64,000 bases of DNA from Fusobacterium ulcerans ATCC 49185 (GTDB lineage Bacteria; Fusobacteriota; Fusobacteriia; Fusobacteriales; Fusobacteriaceae): contig NZ_LR215979.1 of the NCBI RefSeq assembly GCF_900683735.1, forward strand, positions 558,001 through 622,000, written 5' to 3'. Positions 45,468-48,590 of this stretch are shown piece by piece (position 1 is the stretch's first letter; each line of letters begins with the position of its first letter). The notes beneath the pieces were generated by a model. That model saw only the letters and a program-made list of their open reading frames with translations, was not told the DNA's origin and searched no databases. Position numbers and translations under genes: made by a program.

Positions 45468-46427
45468 TTAATTTAAAGCTTTTCTTACAGCTGCTGCTTT
45501 ATCAGCATCCAGCCATTGATCGATTAAGTTATCATTGTTTTTCAGAAGCCATTTAGCAGTAGCATTGTAGTTATCTCCAGTTTCCTGCATATGTGCTAAA
45601 GCTTCAGATGTCAATTTACTTGAAGTATGATATTTGCTAAGAAAAGCAGCAATTTCTGGAGATTTTTCTTTAAATTTATTACTTGCACCAATAGTTACTT
45701 TTACAGATGGACAAGCAGTTTTCCCTTCAAGAAATGCTTCAGCATTATATGGCTCATCTTCTAAAAGGACAAAATCATATTTACCTAACAACCAAGTTGG
45801 TTCCCAGTAATAGCCTACAATTGGTTCTTTCTTTTCATATGCTGCTGTAAAAGCAGCAGATAAGGCAGCATCTGAACCTGGTCTGAAATATACAAAATCC
45901 TTATCTAAACCATAAGCTTCATATTTTTTATACATAATATTATCTATTTCCCAACCTGGAATAGCACCATAAATACGTCCTTTTTCAGGATTTTCACTAT
46001 CTTTGAAAAGTTCTTTGTATTTAGGCAGATCTTTTACAGATTTAAGATCAGGAGCCATAGTTTCTATTACATATTTAGGAACATATATTCCTTGTCTGTT
46101 ATCATCAAAGTTAACCCCTAATTCTTGAAAAAGTCCAGCTTTTAGATCTGGGTAATAGCTAGGAATATTGTCAGTCCACTCTTCCATATGTATATCTATC
46201 TCACCACTTTTAATTGCTTCATGCAAAATAGGCGTAGAACCAGGAACTTCACTCCAAGTATATCCAAATGCGTTTTCTATAATAAAACCTGCAACAGCAT
46301 TGTGAACTTTATTACTGTCCCATCCTGCATCTGCAAAACGTACCTCTTTTTTATCACTTCCACCACATCCTAAGAATACTAATGTAAGAAAACCAGTGAA
46401 AATAAAAGTAAGTATTTTTTTCTTCAT
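45468..46427 (-). CDS. proX: Glycine betaine/proline-type substrate-binding lipoprotein
   Basis: The 319-residue protein begins with a lipoprotein signal peptide with lipobox FLGC (Cys at about residue 21). The mature OpuAC-type domain includes FADAGWDSNKVHNAVAGFI, the DIHMEEWTDNIP region and EPIVGYYWEPTWLLGKYD. Aromatic residues in the latter two commonly form the box for a quaternary ammonium group. An AGGAGG site precedes the ATG. It is the first gene of the operon, and its promoter lies within a long inverted repeat. Confidence 0.92.
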   Translation of the reverse strand: MKKKILTFIFTGFLTLVFLGCGGSDKKEVRFADAGWDSNKVHNAVAGFIIENAFGYTWSEVPGSTPILHEAIKSGEIDIHMEEWTDNIPSYYPDLKAGLFQELGVNFDDNRQGIYVPKYVIETMAPDLKSVKDLPKYKELFKDSENPEKGRIYGAIPGWEIDNIMYKKYEAYGLDKDFVYFRPGSDAALSAAFTAAYEKKEPIVGYYWEPTWLLGKYDFVLLEDEPYNAEAFLEGKTACPSVKVTIGASNKFKEKSPEIAAFLSKYHTSSKLTSEALAHMQETGDNYNATAKWLLKNNDNLIDQWLDADKAAAVRKALN

Positions 46428-46499
46428 ATAAAACCTCCTCTTGTGAATTAAAACTTATATTAATTTATTATTCGACTATAAACAAAAAATTCTTTTTTT

Positions 46500-46544
46500 A
46501 AAAGTAACAACTTTATTTTATAACTAAGTTGTTACTTTTGTCAA
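46500..46544 (-). promoter_or_regulatory. opu promoter embedded in a perfect 14-bp inverted repeat (probable operator)
   Basis: AAAAGTAACAACTT at 46500-46513 and its exact reverse complement at 46526-46539 are 12 bases apart. On the minus strand a promoter TTGACA (46539-46544), 16-base spacer and TATAAA (46517-46522) overlaps it. One arm fills the spacer, the -10 sits between the arms, and the second arm covers the expected start site. A regulator dimer bound here would block polymerase. The site also lies upstream of pepF on the plus strand. Confidence 0.7.
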
Positions 46545-46610
46545 GATTTTTTTGTAAAAGTATGCTATAATAAAAAAGTATATGATTAGTAATAATAGGG
46601 GGTAAAGACT

Positions 46611-46751
46611 ATAAAAAAGATATTTGTAATTGGATTTTTAGCTGCACTCATAGGTGCAAAATTTTATTTTCAAAATGAAGGAAAGGGAAAAGAAAATCAT
46701 AATAATGAAGATATAAAAATAGAAAAACAAGAAGAGAAAGAAGGAGAAAAA
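46611..46751 (+). other. In-frame N-terminal membrane-anchor extension of pepF without a standard start codon
   Basis: Upstream of the pepF ATG, 47 in-frame codons are open. They encode KKIFVIGFLAALIGAKFYF and then a charged Lys/Glu/Asn linker, which looks like a signal anchor. An AGGGGG ribosome site at 46597-46602 is 8 bases before an ATA codon at 46611, exactly where a start would be expected. An in-frame TAG at 46596 bounds it, and no ATG, GTG or TTG lies between. Either ATA is used or an original ATG was lost. Confidence 0.55.
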
Positions 46752-48590
46752 ATGGAAAAGAAAATTTTAAAAAGGGAAGATATAGATAAAAAATATAAAT
46801 GGAATTTAGAAGAATATTATCCAAATTGGGAAGCATGGAACAGAGAACTTGAGCAAACAAAAGAATTAATGAAAAAAGTTCCGGAATATAAAGGGAAAAT
46901 AAAATATAGTTCTGAAAAATTTACAGAAATGATTCAATTGGAAGAAAAAATAGGCAGAACAATAGAAAAATTGTATATATATCCATATATGTTGAAAGAC
47001 ATTAATTCAAAAGATGAAATAGCTTCTATAAAATTACAGGAAATAATGGCAATACTTACAGAATATTCTGTGGCTACTTCTTGGATGACACCTGAAATAT
47101 TGGAAATATCAAAAGAAACAATGGAAAAATGGATAGAAAAAAATCAAATTTTACAAGAACATAAATTTAGTTTGATGGAAATATATAGATTACAAGGGCA
47201 TGTATTAGATGAAGGAAAAGAAAAACTCTTATCTTATTATGGGCAATATATGGGAGCTCCAGATGATATATATGGAGAACTTTCTATTTCAGATATAAAA
47301 TGGAATGAAGTAGAGCTTTCAGATGGTTATAAAGGACCAGTGACTAATGGTATTTATTCAAAAGTTTTATCTACTAACAGAAATCAAGAAGATAGAAAAA
47401 AAGCTTTTGAAGCTTTATATGGATCATATGATGCTAATAAAAATACTTATGGAGCTATATATAGATCACTTCTTCAAAGAGATGTAGCTTCATCAAAAGC
47501 TAGAAATTATAATTCTACACTAGATAAGGCTCTTGAACCTAAAAATGTGCCATCTGAAGTATTTGAAACACTTTTGAAATCAGCAATAGATAATAATGCA
47601 CCACTTCAAAGATATGTAAAACTTAGACAAAAAGCTTTAGGATTAGAAAATTACCATTATTATGATAATAGTATCAATATTGTTGATTATAATAAAGAAT
47701 TTTCATATGATACAGCAAGAGAGATGGTATTAAATTCAATAGCTCCATTAGGAAAAGACTATAGTGAAAAAATGAATAAAGCTCTTAGTGAAGGTTGGAT
47801 AGATGTATATGAAACTGAGAACAAAAGAAGTGGAGCTTATTCAATTGGAATTTATGATGTTCATCCATATATGCTTTTAAATTATCAGTCTACTATGAAT
47901 GATGTATTTACATTAGCACATGAGCTTGGACATACAATGCATACAATACTTTCTAATGAAAACCAGCCATATGCTTCTTCTAACTATACAATATTTGTAG
48001 CTGAAGTAGCATCAACATTTAATGAAAGACTTATGCTTGATTATATGATAAAAAATAGTGATGATCCAAAAGAAAAAATAGCATTACTGGAACAAGCTTT
48101 GGGAAATATAGTAGGGACTTTCTATATTCAGACTTTATTTGCTAACTATGAATATCAGGCTCATAAATTAGTAGAAGAAGGAAAAGCAGTAACACCAGAT
48201 GTATTAAGTGGAATAATGAATAATCTGTTTAAACAATATTTTGGAGAAACTCTTACTATGGATGAACTTCAAAAAATAGTTTGGGCAAGAATACCACATT
48301 TTTATAATTCACCATATTATGTATATCAGTATGCAACAAGCTTTGCTTCATCAGCAAATTTATATGACAGAATAACTAATGAAAAATATAAAATAGAAGA
48401 AAGAGGAGCAGCAACTTCTGCATATCTTGAACTATTAAAATCAGGTGGAAACGATCACCCAATGAATCAGCTGAAAAAAGCTGGGGTAGATTTGGAAAAA
48501 GAGGAGAGCTTCCATGCAGTAGCAAAAGAATTTGATAGACTGCTGGATCAACTGGAATCTGAGCTTGAAAAATTAGAAAACAACAAGTAA
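46752..48590 (+). CDS. pepF: Oligoendopeptidase F (M3 metallopeptidase)
   Basis: PepF cleaves short peptides of about 7-17 residues. The 612-residue protein has the M3B zinc motif HELGH at residues 390-394, with the third ligand Glu in FVAEVASTFNE about 28 residues on, and the family C-terminus. The ATG at 46752 has its own good ribosome site (GAAGGAGA). Translation from here gives a normal-length cytoplasmic enzyme. An upstream in-frame anchor segment could make a longer membrane-bound form (see 46611-46751). Confidence 0.93.
   Translation: MEKKILKREDIDKKYKWNLEEYYPNWEAWNRELEQTKELMKKVPEYKGKIKYSSEKFTEMIQLEEKIGRTIEKLYIYPYMLKDINSKDEIASIKLQEIMAILTEYSVATSWMTPEILEISKETMEKWIEKNQILQEHKFSLMEIYRLQGHVLDEGKEKLLSYYGQYMGAPDDIYGELSISDIKWNEVELSDGYKGPVTNGIYSKVLSTNRNQEDRKKAFEALYGSYDANKNTYGAIYRSLLQRDVASSKARNYNSTLDKALEPKNVPSEVFETLLKSAIDNNAPLQRYVKLRQKALGLENYHYYDNSINIVDYNKEFSYDTAREMVLNSIAPLGKDYSEKMNKALSEGWIDVYETENKRSGAYSIGIYDVHPYMLLNYQSTMNDVFTLAHELGHTMHTILSNENQPYASSNYTIFVAEVASTFNERLMLDYMIKNSDDPKEKIALLEQALGNIVGTFYIQTLFANYEYQAHKLVEEGKAVTPDVLSGIMNNLFKQYFGETLTMDELQKIVWARIPHFYNSPYYVYQYATSFASSANLYDRITNEKYKIEERGAATSAYLELLKSGGNDHPMNQLKKAGVDLEKEESFHAVAKEFDRLLDQLESELEKLENNK

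Follow-up and report, generated by a model that had tools for sequence, protein, structure and literature searches.

Comparison of the pepF gene of Fusobacterium ulcerans ATCC 49185 with its relatives suggests that this one gene probably encodes two isoforms of a peptidase: an anchored, probably periplasmic PepF initiated at an AUA codon, and a cytosolic PepF initiated at an AUG codon further downstream. The gene is located in the window, the whole stretch of 64,000 nucleotides of DNA analyzed here. The arrangement is kept in related genomes, which suggests that it is in use and not a recent accident.

A 47-codon open frame led by ATA precedes the ATG of PepF

The short form of PepF, read from the ATG at 46752 (46752-48590, plus strand), is an M3B oligoendopeptidase F of 612 amino acids with matches to TIGR00181, PF01432 and PF08439. 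In a profile search, TIGR00181 scored 649.8 bits (curated cut-off 490.55) over profile positions 1-590 of 591, and the zinc site HELGH is in frame at 47919-47933. HEXXH is the zinc motif that serves as the signature of M3 peptidases. PepF thus shares with oligoendopeptidase F (TIGR00181; solved relatives 3ce2 and 2qr4) the full-length core, the M3 domain and the HELGH site, and is 81% identical to the PepF of Fusobacterium sp. S1M_St_21. In the long form described below, the profile begins at residue 55, and the anchor lies outside it.

Upstream of the ATG at 46752, the open frame extends back to 46599, following a TAG at 46596-46598. Counted from an ATA at 46611-46613, the proposed start codon of anchored PepF, it comprises 47 codons in frame with PepF (46611-46751, plus strand), with no ATG, GTG or TTG among them. 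This extension translates as IKKIFVIGFLAALIGAKFYFQNEGKGKENHNNEDIKIEKQEEKEGEK and consists of a lysine pair (KK) and a hydrophobic helix (IKKIFVIGFLAALIGAKFYF), followed by a K/E-rich linker; its maximal Kyte-Doolittle value over 15 residues is 2.29. The Shine-Dalgarno sequence (SD) AGGGGG of the long form (46597-46602, plus strand) is positioned 8 nt before the ATA, with a predicted anti-SD duplex of -10.7 kcal/mol. The short form has an internal SD, AAGGAG (46741-46746, plus strand), 5 nt before its ATG (-8.8 kcal/mol). Reading of the sequence thereby confirmed the open extension of 47 codons, the ATA codon and the AGGGGG site that a preliminary description of this DNA had reported. Note that the SD score at the ATA is broad: the adjacent ACT and AAA codons score alike, and what sets ATA apart is that it is near-cognate.

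How often such a constellation arises by chance was surveyed in 352 stop-bounded ORFs (120 codons or longer) from 464 kb of the host genome, made up of the window and 20 sampled stretches. In 32 of them, 20 or more upstream codons contained no canonical start, and in two of these 32 an ATA, ATT, ATC or CTG followed an SD scoring -9 kcal/mol or stronger. One was pepF, with its 47 upstream codons; in the other, the near-cognate codon was only 1-2 codons ahead of the canonical start. In these 464 kb, pepF was the sole ORF of the 352 with a long, hydrophobic extension free of canonical starts and a near-cognate codon after a strong SD. A hydrophobic open frame by itself is not unique to pepF, because ORF 58434 also has one (51 codons), without a comparable SD.

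The ATA codon and its SD are shared by the closest genomes

Of 12 Fusobacterium genomes searched, all contained pepF. In the four closest genomes (G000, G008, G009 and G010; 96% amino-acid identity in PepF), the codon at the proposed start is ATA, preceded by an SD of the type GGGGG, GGAGG or GGAGGG (duplex energy from -9.8 to -12.7 kcal/mol) and, 38-39 nt before the codon, by an extended -10 element. Since in-frame stops intervene between the -10 element and the ATA in G000, G009 and G010, an upstream canonical start on a transcript from this element cannot reach the frame and is ruled out in these three genomes. In G008, a GTG with a weak SD (-2.4 kcal/mol) seven codons upstream of the ATA could serve instead.

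Two further genomes group with these four in a tree of 18 PepF cores, drawn from 57 parsed genomes (support 99/96). G007 has ATT behind GGAGGGG (-9.8 kcal/mol), with the -10 element 34 nt upstream, and an ATG five codons earlier with a weak SD (-3.2 kcal/mol) that could serve as start. In G011, ATA follows GGGGG, with the -10 element 35 nt upstream, and an ATG two codons before the ATA (weak SD, -2.3 kcal/mol) could likewise serve; the GGGGG ends 1 nt before this ATG and 7 nt before the ATA. In the pepF of the window the frame is out of reach of any canonical start; in G011 and G007, weak-SD ATGs upstream could enter it. A strong SD at proper spacing is conserved together with the codon in all four ATA genomes and with the ATT of G007.

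Elsewhere in the genus the homologous anchor begins with ATG (G001-G004). In the three of these sequences that were aligned, this ATG shares a column with the ATA, and homologues beginning MKKLIIIGF or MKNLIIIGF have their ATG in that column. The long start of G005 is GTG, and G006 has no extension. Among the 38 extended genes outside the six-genome clade, the long start is ATG in 35, GTG in two and TTG in one. The comparison of this codon in relatives that the preliminary description had proposed as a check therefore found ATA kept in 4/4 close genomes and the extension present in relatives as well. A sequencing error or a recent mutation at the ATA was rejected, as the codon occurs in four separate genomes.

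A short ORF in another frame (ATG to TAA, 46582-46605) overlaps the SD of the long form and stops 5 nt before the ATA. By eye, the remaining three ATA genomes lack it, and only G009 has an other-frame ATG at its SD. Entry into the pepF frame by frameshifting from this ORF was set aside by inspection.

The anchor-coding segment has not decayed

To what extent the extension is preserved was assessed over the first 72 nt after the ATA, where only one column varies among the four ATA genomes. The PepF core of the same genomes has a mean of 11.7 variable columns per 72 nt and a minimum of 4 (589 overlapping windows of 72 nt). Seventeen gene starts in the window have 2-38 variable columns, each above the single one of the anchor; these include the ATG of PepF itself, a GTG ORF of doubtful status and two rows with 38 columns, apparently misaligned by an indel. 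They were kept from 54 window ORFs tried, the other 37 having no counterpart that satisfied the length and start criteria in the 60 kb taken per genome.

Core pS among the four ATA genomes is 0.29-0.48, and there has therefore been time enough for the extension to decay. It contains no stop or frameshift in any of the four, and the SD and its spacing are kept although the surrounding leader has changed. These observations bear on the view that the ATG was lost, that only soluble PepF is made and that the open frame is a relic. The lack of a canonical start in the 47 codons would agree with this, as would G006, in which the extension is absent and hence dispensable. A relic shared by four genomes at this divergence, undisrupted, less variable over 72 nt than any window of the core and still preceded by its spaced SD, is nevertheless very improbable in our estimate.

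The preliminary description had left two options, use of the ATA to give membrane and soluble PepF, or recent loss of an ATG to leave the soluble enzyme. The former is well supported by the comparison: codon, SD, spacing and promoter element recur in all four close genomes, the encoded anchor has been conserved, and most extended genes of the family have an internal SD-start (see below). The latter is not supported, since four species-level genomes with diverged cores and undecayed anchors share the ATA.

Relative to G011 and G007, changes at codon position 2 are few (2/20 and 2/23), and the hydrophobic pattern is kept with 13/22 and 11/22 identical residues, respectively. Within the ATA genomes, pS of the anchor segment is 0-0.067 and pN is 0. 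Because synonymous sites are silent too, dN/dS is uninformative here and selection on the protein is inseparable from constraint on the RNA. At the protein level the linker has diverged more than the core (pN 0.034-0.088 versus 0.013-0.034).

Promoter and leader signals

An extended -10 promoter element, TGCTATAAT, is located at 46563-46571 (plus strand), and TGNTATAAT is found 34-39 nt before the ATA or ATT in 6/6 genomes of the clade. A sigma-70 scan returned an overlapping site (TTGTCA at 46538, spacer 17, TATGCT) and not the hexamer of this element; with four sites compared to 2.8 in shuffled sequences (sd 1.6), its yield was not clearly above shuffles.

That synonymous sites hardly vary over the first 72 nt would also be expected if the stretch from the promoter to 46751 were an untranslated regulatory leader of soluble PepF, for example with an attenuator hairpin, conserved as RNA. 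A terminator-like hairpin does lie inside the anchor-coding segment at 46643-46658 (TGCACTCATAGGTGCA, then AAATTTTATT; one found versus 0.0 in shuffles, sd 0.2) and is identical in the four ATA genomes. By eye, it is not kept in G011 and G007, yet the hydrophobic amino-acid pattern is, and in homologues the same peptide is begun with ATG, mostly with an SD of its own. Folding of the leader was no better than that of shuffles (z -0.11 and -1.13), and a search of 46300-47000 against Rfam up to E = 1 gave a sole match at chance level (E 0.3; 20.3 bits versus a gathering score of 74), located on a palindrome upstream. A conserved leader RNA structure was rejected on these grounds, with the hairpin at 46643-46658 retained as a minor rival, and we give the untranslated leader very little credence.

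The palindrome is perfect (AAAAGTAACAACTT-12 nt-AAGTTGTTACTTTT, 46500-46539) and lies between pepF and a divergent gene at 46427, which looks like the first gene of an operon for a glycine-betaine ABC transporter. A promoter-like minus-strand site (46544-46515) overlaps the palindrome, whose 37-base core, loop included, occurs at one place per genome in G000, G008, G009 and G010. The palindrome may serve the divergent promoters as an operator.

Two starts are conserved across the family

A search of the family returned a PepF-like match in 61/61 genomes, two of them only distant (G044 and G057; 24-27% identity). N-termini were parsed in 57, leaving out these two and G043 and G045, which the pattern missed; by eye, an extension is present in G043 but not in G045. 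A hydrophobic extension was present in 44 of the 57 parsed genomes and absent from 13. A canonical long start preceded by an SD scoring -8 kcal/mol or stronger is present in 34/44 extended genes, and an internal ATG, GTG or TTG close to where the core begins has an SD of this strength in 37/44, the exceptions being G013, G026, G028, G049, G050, G051 and G054. Synonymous codon shuffles yielded such an internal SD-start in a mean of 10.2 of 44 genes (maximum 17 in 200 shuffles) and codon-order shuffles in 0.9 of 44. Both starts are thus conserved beyond chance, although the genomes are related and the 37/44 against 10.2 is not to be read as a probability. Within the linkers, an SD of this kind precedes 37/79 start codons versus 81/1802 other codons.

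These counts also address whether the long form is the only or dominant product in the clade, with the internal SD and ATG incidental. K/E-rich linkers do produce AAGGAG by chance, as the roughly 10/44 in synonymous shuffles illustrates, but the observed frequency is 37/44. Furthermore, PepF of the 13 extensionless genomes starts 4-15 codons before the anchor residue (11/13 at 11-15), compared to 6-23 codons for the internal starts. AUA is a weak start codon and AUG with an SD a strong one, in keeping with results in S. aureus (PMC13009471). We therefore consider it unlikely that the long form prevails, and favor production of both isoforms.

In two extended genes (G026, L050; G028, L048) a lipobox-like motif lies within the hydrophobic stretch of PepF, and the N-terminus of G005 PepF (L019) reads by eye like a cleavable signal. 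Such signals, which stand in place of the signal anchor in these relatives, are consistent with export, and the family may use several routes to it.

Probable near-cognate initiation in Fusobacterium and known cases in other bacteria

A second gene with a probable near-cognate start is infC, which in 12/12 genomes of the genus has ATT 4-8 nt behind GGAGGT (loci L076-L087). In the four closest genomes and G005, no in-frame ATG, GTG or TTG precedes the ATT, and in the four closest an in-frame stop is directly before it (e.g. G000:C1:3620288-3620782, L079); the others have a canonical codon inside or beside the SD. Because the ATT stands behind GGAGGT with no preceding canonical codon in five genomes, near-cognate initiation very likely operates in these bacteria.

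The AUU starts of E. coli infC and pcnB give lower expression and are monitored by IF3. They resemble the proposed pepF start in being near-cognate AUN codons and differ in using AUU rather than AUA and in producing a single isoform. Internal starts that give shorter isoforms are also known.

Ribo-Ret detected AUA starts for infC and ccpN of S. aureus, each behind an extended SD; citZ has an AUA start as well, and output from the AUA of ccpN and citZ was demonstrated with reporters (PMC13009471). Non-canonical starts there gave ~10% of AUG output in poor medium, and ccpN reached as much as 30% in rich medium (PMC13009471). S. aureus infC, ccpN and cvfC1 (the last with AUU) share with the proposed start of pepF the near-cognate codon behind an extended SD; the cvfC1 start is conserved among Staphylococci and that of ccpN between S. 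aureus and B. subtilis (PMC13009471). These systems belong to another phylum and to genes other than pepF. In the portions of that study available to us, each gene begins with its unusual codon, and no second start downstream giving a differently located protein is described (PMC13009471). The GTC start of Streptomyces sigR is repressed by IF3 and resembles the arrangement proposed for pepF in that a non-canonical start keeps one product scarce (PMC5472188). It differs in its codon and in encoding a regulatory protein, and the effect of IF3 was tested for sigR, the link to pepF being by analogy (PMC5472188). IF3 favors strong codon-anticodon pairs; the AUA/CAU case was not seen among the pairs in the available part of that work (PMC10158994).

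Titles and abstract openings of the open-licence literature contained, among the matches listed, no dual-start or AUA-started PepF and no mapping of translation starts in Fusobacterium. Nor was there, among the matches listed from this literature, a conserved dual-location enzyme with its anchored form on a near-cognate start in one clade. Because AUA/AUU starts and internal starts are known and their combination was not among these matches, we count the pepF arrangement as a new combination; the use of AUA for a membrane isoform would be its new part.

A model for dual location of PepF

From the sequence comparison we infer initiation at the AUA, a transcription start, a topology, periplasmic activity and an isoform ratio as follows. 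A single transcript from the extended -10 element would carry both translation starts. The strong SD would let ribosomes begin on the AUA at 46611, giving a PepF of 659 residues with an N-terminal signal anchor and a charged linker. With the anchor oriented N-in and C-out, the peptidase domain would face the periplasm, tethered to the inner membrane. The second SD would direct ordinary AUG initiation at 46752 and yield the cytosolic form of 612 residues. AUA in place of AUG would keep the anchored form scarce; as AUA initiation in the S. aureus reporters gave only ~10-30% of AUG output, the long form may be minor. By analogy with other AUU, AUA and GUC starts, the AUA would be sensitive to IF3, and control of AUA-started PepF by this factor is plausible.

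More tentatively, and with considerable doubt, the identity of the start codon could act as an evolutionary dial between anchored periplasmic and cytosolic PepF, with the anchored form moved to an IF3-sensitive AUA or AUU in the six-genome clade, where the level of IF3 or the growth rate would determine the location of PepF activity.

Gene callers normally accept only ATG, GTG and TTG as starts. PepF would likely be annotated by them as purely cytosolic, with the anchor missed. If our reading is correct, this metabolic enzyme of a diderm anaerobe has retained a near-cognate start as a means of metering its membrane isoform. The gene would offer a clean test case for control of protein location at the level of translation, and dual starts occur in most of the extended genes examined in the family.
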